From positions 1 through 35,059 of IMG/VR virus record IMGVR_UViG_3300009068_000012: 35,059 nucleotides of DNA; one strand, written 5' to 3'. The position numbers were made by a program, and so were the translations under genes. The first letter of the stretch is position 1; each line of letters begins with the position of its first letter. The notes under the pieces are model-generated. The model saw nothing but the letters and a program-made list of their open reading frames with translations, was not told the origin of the DNA and ran no database searches. This DNA is from a virus. Shown piece after piece: positions 22,012 to 27,916 of the stretch.

Positions 22012-24174
22012 TTATGAGTATGTTAATTCAATTACCTTTAATAATTCGCACTTAGTCGTTTGGTTGATTGACGGATTGAAATCGATTACTTTATTTAATC
22101 GCCAAAGGCATCCTTCAAGATAAATCAGTTTAGAAAAATCAAGTGAATTGATGTCCTGGGCCGTTAGATATAAATAGCAACTCAATAATTTACTATCCTT
22201 GCTTGTGATCTCTGCCAAATATGATCCCCAGTAAGCCGTGTACAAATTAGCACTTGGATAAGGAACAGTTAATGTAAATAGAATTTCATTAGGCACTCCA
22301 AAATTTATATCACTTGTTGGATTTGTAGGATCATCAAAATGTCCAGCATATCCGTAAGATGTGATTCCGGTTTGTTTATTTCCATTACCTTCCGCCGATG
22401 GTTCCTTTAAATTCCAAGATTGACTTACCGTTTTCTTTTTGAATTGTAAAATCCTAATGTTAGAATCCTTTCTTTCCTGAACTGCATCATTTAATTTAAA
22501 AATACCAACTGCTAATTTTTCATCACCGGTATGGGCAGTCAATACCGAAGAAGAAAAAATCAAATCAATGGCTTGATGATCCGAAGTAAATCCAAAATTT
22601 ACATCCTCAATTCGATCGCCATAGGATTGATTATATTTTGTATGATAAGCATCGTTTAAATAGTCATCATCCTCTTTATATTTAAAATCATAGTACCTGG
22701 CATTCAATTCAGACATTGGCTTGATTGAAATTTCTTTCGAATAATCAAGTTTTAAAGTCCAATCTAAAGGATCCGCAATATCAGTATTAGAAATAGAAAT
22801 CAAACCGGTGCTATCTCCAGCTTCTCCGTGCAAAAGTAAATCAGTCGTATCATCAATGCTCACAAATCCACCAACTGCGTAAAAATTAACGTATGGTTCA
22901 ATTAATAAATGATTGTATTGATTAGACGATTCATAAACGTATAAATTGAACATTCGGCAAATACTCGCCAAAATATCCTTTTGATAAATTCCTTTAGGAA
23001 ATAAATTGGACATAATTAAAGTGGCCCCATACGTTGCAGTCAATACCTGGGGATTTGTCGAATTAAAATCTAAAGTAATATTGTCAATTGTAAATCTAAA
23101 TGATCCATTACTTACCGAACTCGATGAAATGTCCATCGAGAAGTAATCGCCATTTGTCAAAGTTTGACTTATTGTCGAATTTATTGTAAAAACTGATTCG
23201 TTATTGTTGTTATCAGCAAGCAAAAAGGTCTGAATCGCTGCACCATTCTTGTATAAAGTAATGGTCGCATTCTGATTTGTACGAATTAATCCACTTCCGT
23301 TAATCGTAAAGTTTCCAACCGTTCCAGTCGTTCCGGTAAACGTAAAGGTAATACCTCCCGAATTTGTAAATAAGTATTGGTTAATGCTTCCAAATACAAA
23401 GGCATAATCCGTAGCCATATTAATTATATTAAATATTTGAGCATTTAAGAGATTGGCCCTTACTTGTTCCATCTCCGAAGTATTGTTCGGAATGATTAAG
23501 TTTTTAAAGAATGGCGAATCCATAAAAGCCGAATCGTATGTATACCCGGCATTCTTAATTATCTTATCTAAAATTTCGTGTACAAAAAATGCTGGCCTAA
23601 ACGCATCCATATGAATATCGTGCGTTCCGTTCCGAATATTTCCGTAATCAATAAAAGGAAAAACAACTCCGGTACCTCCACTTGCATTCCAAGAATTAAT
23701 TATATTCCCTTCAGTCCAGGCAACATTGTAAGTATTAAATGAGTTTGCAAATTCTGAATCCTCTAAAGTTTTATTCCCGATTGCATTTGCTAATCCTCCC
23801 AACTCGCCAAAGACCGCACATTCATAATCAATAGCCCCATTGTTTATTTTGATTTCAAGAAGCCGAATAACTCCTTTAAATACTTGAATCTTGTTGACAA
23901 ATATTTTTGCACTTGCTTGCTTTGATGGATCAAAATTAAAACCAACATTTGGAAGCAAAGGATTTGAAATGAAATAATTATTAGCACTCCCAAGATTGTA
24001 TATATGGCCAAAAACTTTGTTATTGTTCGCATTGCCTGGGATTGTTATCGTTTTAGAATAGTTTGTATTTCGGCTCGAAAAATCCTTTATGTCATCGATA
24101 TTAAAATTCAACTCAGCACCGATATCCTGATACAAATCCAACCGTACATTCTCAATAAATATTTCAGTTATCAT
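22012..24174 (-). CDS. Tail tip or baseplate protein
   Basis: 720 aa. The N-terminal block (DLYQDIGAELNFNIDDIKDF, then SSRNTNYSKTITIPG) is a pattern I know from tail proteins of Bacteroidota phages. A beta-rich body follows, with a segment that looks like a carbohydrate-binding jelly roll at about 270-390 (GGITFTFTGTTGTVGNFTIN). The C-terminus ends in a strand (TTKCELLKVIELTYS). It starts by ATGA overlap with the preceding tail gene and lies 1 bp before the tape measure gene. The exact role (hub or distal tail) is not clear. Confidence 0.75.
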   Translation of the reverse strand: MITEIFIENVRLDLYQDIGAELNFNIDDIKDFSSRNTNYSKTITIPGNANNNKVFGHIYNLGSANNYFISNPLLPNVGFNFDPSKQASAKIFVNKIQVFKGVIRLLEIKINNGAIDYECAVFGELGGLANAIGNKTLEDSEFANSFNTYNVAWTEGNIINSWNASGGTGVVFPFIDYGNIRNGTHDIHMDAFRPAFFVHEILDKIIKNAGYTYDSAFMDSPFFKNLIIPNNTSEMEQVRANLLNAQIFNIINMATDYAFVFGSINQYLFTNSGGITFTFTGTTGTVGNFTINGSGLIRTNQNATITLYKNGAAIQTFLLADNNNNESVFTINSTISQTLTNGDYFSMDISSSSVSNGSFRFTIDNITLDFNSTNPQVLTATYGATLIMSNLFPKGIYQKDILASICRMFNLYVYESSNQYNHLLIEPYVNFYAVGGFVSIDDTTDLLLHGEAGDSTGLISISNTDIADPLDWTLKLDYSKEISIKPMSELNARYYDFKYKEDDDYLNDAYHTKYNQSYGDRIEDVNFGFTSDHQAIDLIFSSSVLTAHTGDEKLAVGIFKLNDAVQERKDSNIRILQFKKKTVSQSWNLKEPSAEGNGNKQTGITSYGYAGHFDDPTNPTSDINFGVPNEILFTLTVPYPSANLYTAYWGSYLAEITSKDSKLLSCYLYLTAQDINSLDFSKLIYLEGCLWRLNKVIDFNPSINQTTKCELLKVIELTYS

Positions 24175-25310
24175 CGGTATTGAATGGCTTGTTTAATAGA
24201 TAAATCAAAAGTCAATTCGTAATTAAAATTCTTATCACTTGTAAGATTCTTTTCTGCCCAATCAGTCGCACGCATTACAATCGGGTAATAAGAACCATTT
24301 AAATGCAAATAGGCTTCGGGAGAAGCAAGCAATTGGCTTCCTACATTGTAATCCTTTACATTTAAATAATCACTAACAACCAAATAGGAATAATCTACCA
24401 CCCCGGCAAATGATTGAACACCACCATAAAAGACATTGGCCCCACTTTTATTAATCAAATTGCCTCCGCTTCTTACAAACTCATTGACTTTGTAGGTGCT
24501 TCGGTTAAATTTCTTTTGTTGTCTCGATAATAAACGAAATCCGAATGTTTCGTATCCACCGTATTGATTCAGAAACGTAATCAATATAGGTGTCCATTTC
24601 GGTGCCACAACTTGGGTAATGGTTATCGTATCACTTCCAACCGTTACCTGGTAGCCGTATGTCGTTGATGTAATGAATGAACTACCTAAATAGGTATTGA
24701 TTGACGTAGGCGATAAATCTAAAAGTAATGTATTTGATGTGGATAAGGTTGCACCTACCGAAGCACTTCCATCATTGGTTCCATTGCTTGTAATCTTTTG
24801 AATCGAAGCCGTTACACCGGTGCCAGCCGTATTCATATAAGTCATAAATAGTTTCTCGCCACTTATTACCTCTAAAGTTGTTTTATCTCTACTTGTTACA
24901 AACTTATTTGCATAATCTCCCAAGGTATTCCCGAAAGGATCAGCCGAATAATTCCATCCGTAATAAGTCGATATGGTTGTAAGGTTTGGATATGTTACTC
25001 CTCCGTATTCTTCGCCATATGAAATCGTGTAGTTGCAGAATAAACCGGTGCTTGCATTTTGTAAAACCGTGCTTGTGTTTGGGTTAAATCCGCTATCAAA
25101 GTAGTTTCGGACAATGGGACTTGCATCGAATATCCCATAACCTCCGGAATCCGGAAAGGTTTTAATTGTGGCAACAAGGTTTCCACCAATAGATAAGTCA
25201 AATACATATTTAAAGTTTGAATTTGCGACATTGCTTGAAGTCACAACGTGATATAAAGCATCGTGAGCCGAACTGAAAGCCGTTGGACTACTTTGTATTG
25301 TTATTGCCAT
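24171..25310 (-). CDS. Distal-tail-like structural protein
   Basis: 379 aa. The N-terminal half holds beta domains (AITIQSSPTAFSSAHDALYH, then IFDASPIVRNYFDSGFNPNT). The C-terminal half (ITFLNQYGGYETFGFRLLSR, then FNYELTFDLSIKQAIQY) is a pattern I see in tail proteins encoded beside the previous one. The gene overlaps the gp10-like gene by 23 bp. Its place between chaperone and tape measure genes supports a tail or baseplate role. No residue is diagnostic. Confidence 0.7.
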   Translation of the reverse strand: MAITIQSSPTAFSSAHDALYHVVTSSNVANSNFKYVFDLSIGGNLVATIKTFPDSGGYGIFDASPIVRNYFDSGFNPNTSTVLQNASTGLFCNYTISYGEEYGGVTYPNLTTISTYYGWNYSADPFGNTLGDYANKFVTSRDKTTLEVISGEKLFMTYMNTAGTGVTASIQKITSNGTNDGSASVGATLSTSNTLLLDLSPTSINTYLGSSFITSTTYGYQVTVGSDTITITQVVAPKWTPILITFLNQYGGYETFGFRLLSRQQKKFNRSTYKVNEFVRSGGNLINKSGANVFYGGVQSFAGVVDYSYLVVSDYLNVKDYNVGSQLLASPEAYLHLNGSYYPIVMRATDWAEKNLTSDKNFNYELTFDLSIKQAIQYR

Positions 25311-25977
25311 TGAAATTTTGTCTAATGTTTATTATAATATCTTCGCCAATTGCTATGGCCATTTTTTGTCTCCAATCCTCATTGAATACTTTGTCTAAAT
25401 TATCATCAAAGAATCCAACCCGTGGCATACCTCTTTTTTTAATCTTTTTAGCCGTAGCCTCTGCAACCTTTCTTAAATTTTTAGATTGATTGGCAATGGC
25501 CCCAGCATTTAATGATTTCCTTTGATTGGCCGTTAAATTCTTTCTTTGATCCTCCGTTCTTATATAACTTTTATGTCTTAAATACCATTGCATTAATGCT
25601 TCTACCATATTTTTAGAAACACTTAAAGTCCGATATTTATAAATGCTATTTGGCTGATTTGACTTTATTCCTTTTACTCCTTTATTTTGGAAATCATAAT
25701 ATTTACTTGCTGGATTAGATTGGTCGTATCCAATGGTAATCGAATAGCTTCCGTATTTGGTTTCAGTTACCTGGCTAACTCTCATATCCGATAATTTACC
25801 GGTATCGACTTTACCCTTTCTTTCAATGGTTTTTTTAGCCATCATCATAAACCGATTAGCAGCTTCAAACATTACTGTCTCCACTTCGGTTAATTTCAGA
25901 TTCGAAATAGTTTTTTCGGCCCCTAAATTATTAAGGACATCCATATTGGATTTTTGCGATTGACTAATACTTGGCAT
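25288..25977 (-). CDS. HK97 gp10-like structural protein
   Basis: 229 aa, basic. The core (ANRFMMMAKKTIERKGKVDT, GKLSDMRVS, then YSITIGYDQSNPASKYYDFQ) has the features of the gp10-like connector family: helix, then strand, DTG turn, strand. The C-terminal 100 residues are helical with many Lys and Arg. The ATG overlaps the end of the chaperone frame B by 14 bp. A neck or tail-completion role is likely. Confidence 0.65.
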   Translation of the reverse strand: MPSISQSQKSNMDVLNNLGAEKTISNLKLTEVETVMFEAANRFMMMAKKTIERKGKVDTGKLSDMRVSQVTETKYGSYSITIGYDQSNPASKYYDFQNKGVKGIKSNQPNSIYKYRTLSVSKNMVEALMQWYLRHKSYIRTEDQRKNLTANQRKSLNAGAIANQSKNLRKVAEATAKKIKKRGMPRVGFFDDNLDKVFNEDWRQKMAIAIGEDIIINIRQNFNGNNNTK

Positions 25978-26245
25978 TTATTTTATTAATTTGGTCTTTA
26001 TCAAATGCGTTCTTTGCTTTTAAATAACTCAATGCGTTTAAACATTGAATTGTTGAAAGGCCATAGACTTCTTCAAGTTTAATTCGTTCGTGTTCTGCGA
26101 TGATGGTAGCTTGGTAAGTCCATCCAAAACGTTGCATAAAGCCGTTATCGTTTCCTCTGCCTCGTTCTTCGGTATCCCCTGACTTATCAATCTCTGCTTC
26201 AAATAATCCGCTAAATTGTTTATCGATTGAACGTATATTTGACAA
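25964..26245 (-). CDS. Tail assembly chaperone, frame B (product of a probable -1 frameshift)
   Basis: 93 codons from TTG at 26243-26245; there is no ATG until residue 37. The C-terminal half (FMQRFGWTYQATIIAEHERI, then LEEVYGLSTIQCLNALSYLK) has the pattern of the second chaperone frame in siphoviruses (gpT-like). It overlaps the preceding 0-frame by 208 bp in the -1 frame, starting exactly at a run of nine T. It ends 14 bp inside the next gene, while the 0-frame ends 60 bp earlier, so this frame is what connects to the downstream gene. It could be made as a fusion by -1 slippage, or from the TTG start. Confidence 0.65.
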   Translation of the reverse strand: MSNIRSIDKQFSGLFEAEIDKSGDTEERGRGNDNGFMQRFGWTYQATIIAEHERIKLEEVYGLSTIQCLNALSYLKAKNAFDKDQINKINAKY

Positions 26246-26733
26246 AAAAAAACAACTGATCCGTAAACTGATTCATAACTTGCCTCTAATAAATCATTGG
26301 CATATTCTTCGTGCTTGCTTGCATCGTACTGGTCAACTTTCCAACCAAACCAAGTCTTTTTCATTGGCATAACCATCGAGGCTCCAATCTTATGCAAGTT
26401 ATTCATCACATCATTTCCGAAAAACTTAGTTTCCATATACCTGGCATATGGCATATTTCGAATGTCATAAATGCACTTGTATTTCTTACCGTTTACTTTA
26501 ATGTAATCTTGTGGCTTGGGATTCGGTTGTGATTCGTTTAGGAATGCAATATCTTTGATCTGATGGCTTAACTCATCAAGACTTAACGAATCTATTTGGG
26601 CCTCAGTTCTATTTGTTAAAATAGCCAAAGTCTTGACTGCAATATCCAGACTTGTATCCCCTTCGTTTTTAGATAATAGGTTGGAGATTTGTTGCATCTG
26701 CCAAACCGAAACATTTGTCCAATTCATAAACAT
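26038..26733 (-). CDS. Tail assembly chaperone, frame A
   Basis: 231 aa from the ATG at 26731-26733 (MFMNWTNVSVWQMQQISN); the next ATG at 26727 is also possible. A longer frame needs TTG inside terminase. The body (IKVNGKKYKCIYDIRNMPYA, then NLHKIGASMVMPMKKTWFG, then YDASKHEEYANDLLEASYES) has a pattern I associate with siphovirus tail chaperones. At the run of nine T (minus strand, 26252-26244) the 0-frame continues for 68 more residues to its stop. If the ribosome slips by -1 the product would join frame B, giving about 256 aa. These chaperones bind the tape measure protein and help the tube assemble. Confidence 0.72.
   Translation of the reverse strand: MFMNWTNVSVWQMQQISNLLSKNEGDTSLDIAVKTLAILTNRTEAQIDSLSLDELSHQIKDIAFLNESQPNPKPQDYIKVNGKKYKCIYDIRNMPYARYMETKFFGNDVMNNLHKIGASMVMPMKKTWFGWKVDQYDASKHEEYANDLLEASYESVYGSVVFFCQIYVQSINNLADYLKQRLISQGIPKNEAEETITALCNVLDGLTKLPSSQNTNELNLKKSMAFQQFNV
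26244..26252 (-). promoter_or_regulatory. Slippery run of nine T, candidate -1 frameshift site
   Basis: On the minus strand the codons read GTT GTT TTT TTT TGT in frame A. A -1 slip on TTT TTT gives TTG TCA AAT, entering frame B at its first codon. Homopolymers of this kind are known slip sites in tail chaperone genes. I saw no clear stimulating hairpin downstream. Confidence 0.55.
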
Positions 26734-26743
26734 AAATAAGTAA

Positions 26744-27916
26744 TTATGCAAAACTATATCTACCGGTGCCTGATTTAAAATCAAACTTTCGCCAGGCAAG
26801 AGCCAAAGCCATCACGCAATCATCGTGAAATCCGGAAGGTGCAGAATATTTTACACCGTGTGAACTATATTGATATTCAAATATTTCGAGTTCCTCTTTA
26901 ATAATGCCTTCGGGATAATGAATCCGTTCTTGATGGATAGCTAATTGTAAACCTACCATTAATTCTTGCTTGCTTGTAGTGGAGAATTTAAATGCCTCCA
27001 CATTTAAACCATCTCGTTGTAACTGCTCGACTACCGGATCCCCTACTCCAGTGCTATCAATTAACATCGGAACCTTTGGTAAATTCCGTATTTTATTTTG
27101 CGTGGAGGCCCAATCATTTTGGAATCGTTCAAAATAAGCCACATTTCCACTATTATCTAATCCAATAATTACAGTCCAATCGGAATACTTTGCAAGATCT
27201 ATTCCGTAACATTTAACCGGATTGATTGACATTTCAGAAATGCACTTCCCAATCGCCTGGCTTCCAAACGGATTTGCGGAGTTTTCTGCCGGGTTCGCCA
27301 TATACTCTTGCTCAAATACAACCTCCGGCAAACTCATTCTTGCTGAATCAATTTCTTCTTTACGGATATATGGATTATCATAGGTCGAATATTTAAAGGA
27401 TTCCCATTCTGCATTCGGTTCTAAACCTTTAAGAAATAAAGAATAAAAATAATTCTTTCCTCGTGGAGTTGAAAGGAATATAGCACGGCCCTGGTAATCG
27501 GTTAATGTTGGCCTTATTGAATTATTCCATCCGCTTTCTAAATCAGTTATGAATGATGCTTCATCAATAATAACGTAATGGAATTTAAGGCCCCGAAGAT
27601 TATCGAGCCTTTCGCCAGTGAAGAATCTGATTGAACCGCCACTTGTTAATTTAAATGTTAGATCACTTCGGTTTGCCGTGGCAATGGTATCGGGAATTAA
27701 GATACAAAGTTCATCAAAGAAAACCTTTGCAAGTTGATAAGTAGGTGTAATGTATGCGACCTTTTTACCTTTGACCGCTTCTAAAAATGTGATTACTTGG
27801 CATATCAATGACTTGCCCCACCGTCTGCCCGACATTAGAACCTTGAATCTTGCTTTGGAGTTTAAAACCTTAGCTTGATTTTTATGCGGTTTCGGAAGGA
27901 CTATTTTCGTCTGCAA
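26744..27916 (-). CDS. terL: Terminase large subunit
   Basis: 390 aa. ATPase motifs: Walker A GRRWGKS at 30-36, Walker B VIIDEAS at 115-121, and coupling motif LSTPRG at 149-154. Nuclease motifs: GIDLAKYSDW (D240), LIDSTGVGD (D287) and FHDDCVMALALA (D365, D366). It packages DNA with the portal and cuts it. The start is TTG at 27914-27916: a stop lies two codons upstream, and the first ATG falls next to Walker A, after family-typical sequence (IVLPKPHKNQ). The first 35 bp overlap the small subunit gene. Confidence 0.93.
   Translation of the reverse strand: MQTKIVLPKPHKNQAKVLNSKARFKVLMSGRRWGKSLICQVITFLEAVKGKKVAYITPTYQLAKVFFDELCILIPDTIATANRSDLTFKLTSGGSIRFFTGERLDNLRGLKFHYVIIDEASFITDLESGWNNSIRPTLTDYQGRAIFLSTPRGKNYFYSLFLKGLEPNAEWESFKYSTYDNPYIRKEEIDSARMSLPEVVFEQEYMANPAENSANPFGSQAIGKCISEMSINPVKCYGIDLAKYSDWTVIIGLDNSGNVAYFERFQNDWASTQNKIRNLPKVPMLIDSTGVGDPVVEQLQRDGLNVEAFKFSTTSKQELMVGLQLAIHQERIHYPEGIIKEELEIFEYQYSSHGVKYSAPSGFHDDCVMALALAWRKFDFKSGTGRYSFA

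Follow-up and report, generated by a model that had tools for sequence, protein, structure and literature searches.

The virus DNA analysed here carries a recoded chaperone-like gene pair whose overlap is unusually long and in which selection maintains both frames; the family of this pair has so far been unannotated. In our interpretation, a −1 frameshift at a run of nine T probably makes two products, the upstream frame alone (A) and its fusion to the second frame (A-B), which would form a tail assembly chaperone pair of the gpG/gpGT kind; the slippage, its ribosomal nature, its efficiency and the function of the products are what we infer. That recoding of some kind occurs at the A/B junction is almost certain.

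The locus and its two frames

The window, meaning the whole stretch of 35,059 bases that was analysed (IMG/VR virus record IMGVR_UViG_3300009068_000012), has its structural genes on the minus strand (Table 1). Frame A starts with ATG at 26733 or 26727. On the coding strand the junction reads GTT GTT TTT TTT TGT CAA, with the heptamer in phase with frame A. The open stretch of frame B begins at about 26272; past the run the frame opens with TTG (26245..26243), and its earliest ATG is codon 37. The predicted A-B fusion has 256 aa when counted from ATG 26733 and 254 aa from ATG 26727. Frame B ends at 25964, 14 bp inside the downstream gene (ATG at 25977), and frame A stops earlier, at 26038. The preliminary description of this DNA had given the coordinates, the overlap of 208 bp, 68 open codons of frame A after the slip, a fusion of about 256 aa, the lack of an ATG in frame B for 36 codons and the overlap of its end with the next gene, and each of these figures checks out. 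On the coding strand of the window the T9 run is the only run of at least eight T, and 0.00 occurrences of the extended T-run motif were expected in shuffled sequences.

Table 1 Features of the A/B locus and its surroundings in the window
Feature	Position	Strand	Remarks
Frame A	26038..26733	-	0-frame product, 229-231 aa; candidate gpG-like chaperone
T9 run with slippery heptamer T TTT TTT	26244..26252	-	heptamer at 26251..26245
Frame B	25964..26245	-	93 codons, reached by −1 shift, LSNIRSIDKQF...
A/B overlap, dual-coded	26038..26245	-	208 bp; A tail of 68 codons beyond the slip
Terminase large subunit, immediately upstream	26744..27916	-	Pfam Terminase_6N/6C, PHROG; syntenic in 121 family loci
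HK97-gp10-like tail-completion protein, immediately downstream	25288..25977	-	PF04883, E 3.4e-4; syntenic in 124 family loci
379-aa protein, same operon	24171..25310	-	syntenic in 120 family loci
720-aa protein, same operon	22012..24174	-	distant relative of P12024S gp45
Probable tape measure protein, 588 aa	20244..22010	-	coiled-coil and hydrophobic segments; phrog_21917, E 1.1e-12

The gene order on the minus strand between 14021 and 28307 is unusual: TerS, TerL, A/B, the gp10-like gene, the 379-aa and 720-aa genes and the tape measure gene are followed by further genes, among them those for a capsid-like protein (related to P12024S gp02) and a large portal-like protein of 606 aa, so that tail genes lie between terminase and head genes. 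The terminase large subunit apparently starts with TTG (27916), and the next in-frame ATG falls within the Walker A region. Fourth after A/B comes the probable tape measure gene, with three genes (about 4 kb) between; phrog_21917 is a family of unknown function, and the tape measure identity is deduced from the sequence character of the protein.

Conservation of the slip site

Four scans of IMG/VR yielded 206 loci, which after removal of copies left 138 distinct relatives with a scorable junction. The two frames stood in −1 relation in 130 of these, were fused in frame in seven and were affected by a deletion in one (L046). Throughout the 130 −1 relatives the heptamer T TTT TTT was invariant and in phase. 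In L046 (L046:3609-4234) the slip region is deleted and frame A is still in frame with its own tail; this locus may be an assembly artefact.

For a stricter comparison we used a divergent set of 63 relatives, whose first 200 nt downstream differ pairwise by more than 7%. All nine T were invariant in 63/63, including three synonymous third positions (−7, −4 and −1). Elsewhere in frame A the corresponding T-ending codons are used at frequencies of 0.35 (GTT) and 0.67 (TTT), and third positions of frame A near the run vary freely, unlike those of the run itself. Because the run is invariant in the entire divergent set, synonymous positions included, its presence is more than chance. Among 131 members including the window, its length was nine T, or ten in one clade, and never less than nine. 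Three −1 forms were found: GTT TTT TTT TGT, in which frame B opens with TTG; GTT TTT TTT TAT, opening with TTA; and the T10 form (G/A)TT TTT TTT TTA, opening with TTT.

The −1 slip on TTT TTT, which had been proposed from the window's letters together with a comparison of slip sites in relatives, is well borne out by these data: the heptamer is kept in 130 of 138 relatives and also in the cultured phage P12024S, the nine T in the complete divergent set, and natural fusions at exactly the same junction occur in three independent lineages. The separate searches of A and B against phage proteins that had been suggested as well succeeded in part, as IMG/VR contained natural fusions at the junction and named phages gave no match (tblastn of A or B against 50,697 phage records). 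Likewise, no relatives were found in the bacterial genomes of GTDB 220, and the window's own A and B had no Pfam or PHROG match.

Selection on both frames in the overlap

When sequences are taken singly, the openness of frame A beyond the slip is not a strong criterion (simulation P 0 to 0.29, median 0.02), and substitution-based tests were relied upon. In 515 moderately divergent pairs, third positions differed at a rate of 0.52 in the A-only part and 0.51 in the B-only part, and at 0.335 for the frame B third positions of the overlap. Where the same amino acid was encoded, codons were identical in 0.74 of cases in the overlap vs 0.51 and 0.54 outside. The drop in third-position differences was also seen in 31 independent pairs, both for B thirds (29/31, Wilcoxon p 1e-6) and for A thirds (30/31, p 1e-9). 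Moreover, frame-A identity in the overlap amounted to 0.63 vs 0.41 expected under B-only constraint, an excess with a mean z of 4.15 that was positive in 31/31 independent pairs. The third reading frame of the overlap always meets a stop within 14 codons. Suppressed synonymous change and excess frame-A identity together show that both alternative C-termini are under purifying selection on one DNA stretch. The earlier claim that two long proteins share this DNA thus holds for selected proteins and not for open frames alone.

In the window the 0-frame stop lies 204 nt beyond the slip, and the range within the family is 132-255 nt (44-85 codons); for published chaperone sites of actinophages, the annotated SEA-PHAGES frameshifts, this distance averages 26 nt (PMC10885494). 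The AlphaFold model of the frame A tail has helices to about residue 205, followed by disorder.

Natural fusions of A and B

In the lineages represented by L100/L104 (GTA ATG AAT TGG ATT), L147/L148 and L154/L155 there is no T run and A reads straight into B; in these T-less fused lineages the alternative frame is full of stops. The remaining fusion, L007 (L007:4001-4762; same contig as L012 and L048), has T10 and encodes A-B as one ORF that is 98% identical to the fusion predicted for the window. This T10 could be a real one-base variant or a homopolymer error of sequencing or assembly. The AlphaFold model of the native L007 fusion (pLDDT 90.7, pTM 0.84) contains one continuous helix (151-171) across the junction.

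Well-supported branches of a maximum-likelihood tree force three changes for the fused state. The fused lineages are nested within frameshifting clades, L100/L104 and L147-L155 on long branches, and the fused state is therefore derived. Relatives that lack the run and have one continuous gene had been named in the preliminary description as a finding that would speak against the frameshift. Taken literally, a few lineages are of this kind; their derived position in the tree makes them support for the fusion product. As judged from sequence comparison, the natural fusions show that A-B is the functional chain, joined at exactly this junction, and it is also clear from the fused lineages that some relatives can do without a separate A product.

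The gene neighbourhood is altered in lineages that lost the frameshift (L147 and L154). In the L154 lineage, which is fused, TerL and A are about 1.6 kb apart (L154:1330-3000), and an extra 0.35-0.4 kb are present between B and the gp10-like gene in L147 and L154 (L147:3717-4073; L154:3708-4123).

A cultured relative, phage P12024S

The 720-aa operon gene of the window led to Nonlabens (Persicivirga) phage P12024S (NC_018271), a cultured flavobacterial siphophage whose gp45 is a distant relative. Within gp38 of this phage (gp38/gp39 at record positions 23136-23830) is the sequence ATA CTT TTT TTT TAT CAT. Starting at its T run, the −1 frame continues without a stop to the end of gp39. Comparison of the −1 gp38/gp39 fusion with the profile of the family gave an alignment that spans the junction (hhalign E 2.4e-6), and the predicted fold of gp38 (I6R9M9) matched the family model (Foldseek E 3.5e-9). 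P12024S thus resembles the window in the order TerL gp37, gp38, gp39, in the T9 run with its in-phase T TTT TTT and in the homologous −1 fusion. It differs in its very divergent sequence, in an A tail of just 25 codons and in its annotation as two unrelated hypothetical proteins, which PHROGs also keep as separate function-unknown families (phrog_32199 and phrog_38404).

Phage P12024L matched the P12024S gp38/gp39 fusion at 99%. Gene 3 of Elizabethkingia phage TCUEAP1, which occupies the same post-TerL position, had no detectable relation (hhalign probability 0.1), and no synteny with the query genes was found in Polaribacter phage P12002S and Flavobacterium phage 6H.

Ribosomal frameshifting or transcriptional slippage

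We consider it likely that the recoding is ribosomal. One gene would then give two products: most ribosomes would read A to its stop, yielding a chaperone of about 230 aa, while a minority would slip back one base with two Phe-tRNAs on U UUU UUU and continue in frame B, yielding A-B of about 254 aa. Tandem Phe-tRNA slippage of this kind is permitted by the phase of the heptamer, which has the X_XXY_YYZ pattern, and −1 frameshifting of more than 0.1% on U_UUU_UUU is known from E. coli where stimulators are lacking (PMC4066793). The family alignments revealed no conserved stimulatory hairpin or pseudoknot downstream and no compensatory pair. Folding of the first 50 nt downstream gave a mean z of −0.87 vs 0.15 in the control, with no covariation, and the consensus helix obtained, which takes in the T run, was weak, with energies of −1.2 to −3.2 kcal/mol. 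In this helix, located at 26168-26252 of the window and present in relatives too, the end of the T run pairs with GATA(A/G), a conserved motif some 16 nt downstream, again with no covariation.

The same proteins would result if RNA polymerase added one U on the T9 run and the minority of U10 mRNAs were translated to A-B, the outcome being equal and the molecular machine different. Such programmed transcriptional slippage would account for a run that was never shorter than nine in 131 members, though a ribosomal heptamer needs only seven, and for the invariance of the outermost T, the second base of a Val/Ile codon, despite the occurrence of Thr, Ser or Met at this position in fused lineages. 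T runs longer than eight are known sites of transcription slippage (PMC3711429; PMC5009743), L007 has T10 in its DNA and reads A-B directly, and the missing conserved ribosomal stimulator fits this explanation as well. On the other hand, hydrophobic codons (Val/Ile/Leu before, Leu/Phe after) can also account for the outer two T, no phase of the run occurs other than the one that allows tandem Phe-tRNA re-pairing, even in the distant P12024S, and in the phage gpG/gpGT systems known so far it is the ribosome that slips (PMC5009743). Shigella mxiE and Thermus dnaX, where slippage is transcriptional (PMC3711429, PMC5009743), likewise have a homopolymer of at least nine and two products per gene; unlike at those sites, the run of the window doubles as an in-phase ribosomal heptamer. 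On balance, programmed transcriptional slippage appears rather unlikely. Somewhat more doubtful still is the extended proposal that polymerase stuttering at an obligatory T9 would set the ratio of the two products, instead of or alongside the ribosome, with the unshifted tail as a selected domain of its own.

Predicted function of the pair

Phage_TAC_7 (PF10109; tail assembly chaperones E/41/14), which comprises chaperones of the P2 gpE / Mu gp41 type, was the sole Pfam family matched repeatedly. The weak matches came from 6/34 members, the window protein having none; all were below the cut-off (the best with 21.6 bits vs a cut-off of 25, E 2.3e-4) and always fell on the N-terminal part of frame A, at about residues 4-61. 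From these sub-threshold matches and from the recoding architecture we infer a tail-chaperone role. Sequence and fold searches of the PDB gave nothing useful: Foldseek with the fusion returned no significant match, and a second structure comparison gave only low Z values vs PDB for both models. The resemblance of frame B to gpT-like second chaperone frames, proposed in the preliminary description, stands with respect to architecture, B being a −1 extension of A, but frame B matches no known family.

By analogy, the pair most likely works like gpG/gpGT of phage lambda, whose roles are summarised in PMC5009743. The shared N-terminal part would coat the tape measure protein, as in lambda, and the rare frame-B extension would recruit the tail-tube protein at a fixed ratio. 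Both systems belong to tailed phages and consist of an upstream ORF with a −1 extension at a heptamer, so that the products have a common N-terminal domain; in both the fusion is expected as the minority product. They differ in the slippery site (G GGA AAG in lambda, T TTT TTT in the window) and in the unshifted product, which in lambda stops soon after the slip and in the window's family runs on for 44-85 codons with a selected tail. The lambda pair is located directly before the tape measure gene, a place that is typical of such pairs without strictly defining them, whereas the window pair follows the terminase gene, and the two pairs have no recognisable sequence similarity.

The frameshift might also be real and the pair something other than a tail chaperone, e.g. 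a head-tail or tail-completion factor. A/B does not adjoin the tape measure gene and lies between terminase and the HK97-gp10-like gene, in an order (TerL, A/B, gp10-like, 379 aa, 720 aa) that is conserved in the family, and neither a fold match nor an above-threshold family match was obtained for A/B. Such a role is nevertheless unlikely, given that Phage_TAC_7 was matched repeatedly, albeit below threshold, at the same residues, that a minority −1 fusion product is a hallmark of tail chaperones, and that no second frameshift pair was seen beside the tape measure gene, located immediately after the 720-aa gene.

Independent initiation of frame B and sequencing error

The preliminary description had regarded initiation at TTG as the main alternative to a frameshift. 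Frame B would then be a separate protein, initiated at TTG or at a later codon inside A, and no fusion would be made. TTG is a permitted start codon with which the terminase ORF apparently opens too, and gp39 of P12024S was annotated by its depositors from an internal ATG. In the family as a whole, however, frame B opens with TTG in 71, TTA in 49 and TTT in 11 of the 131 members including the window (32, 27 and 4 of the divergent 63), i.e. 31/63 divergent relatives have TTA or TTT in place of TTG. Even the best in-frame start column, alignment column 38, contains start codons in only 42/63. As neither TTA nor TTT is a start codon and a conserved start column is lacking, frame B is not self-initiated as a rule. 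Conservation of frame B residues starts right at the T run, under the start-site reading only the T run would be conserved, and natural A-B fusions exist. With TTA or TTT in about half of the family, TTG initiation is ruled out as the general mechanism, and that frame B is a separate protein is highly improbable.

A sequencing error or broken gene, where the loss of one T would have split a genuine A-B gene, could be read from the T10 and intact fusion of L007, but is ruled out for practical purposes, as a cultured phage and more than 60 divergent relatives, recovered from many metagenomes, share the identical T9 and frame break, and the frame A tail is conserved as protein beyond what frame B accounts for.

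Meaning for the virus family

With these results the users of gpG/gpGT-like recoded pairs gain a large family of viruses that are uncultured and have flavobacterial phages among their relatives; its A/B proteins had been filed as unknown until now. For the cultured relative P12024S it follows that gp38/gp39 should be re-annotated as one recoded gene. As an example of a frameshift gene whose two alternative C-termini are both selected on one piece of DNA, the locus is unusually clear, and to the question whether the unshifted tail is a mere leftover the substitution data say no. Lineages with fused frames are natural experiments on the need for the unfused product. With the unshifted tail as a selected domain of its own, one DNA stretch would encode two alternative functional chaperone tails, and the invariant T9 makes the question of ribosome versus RNA polymerase directly testable by a reporter.
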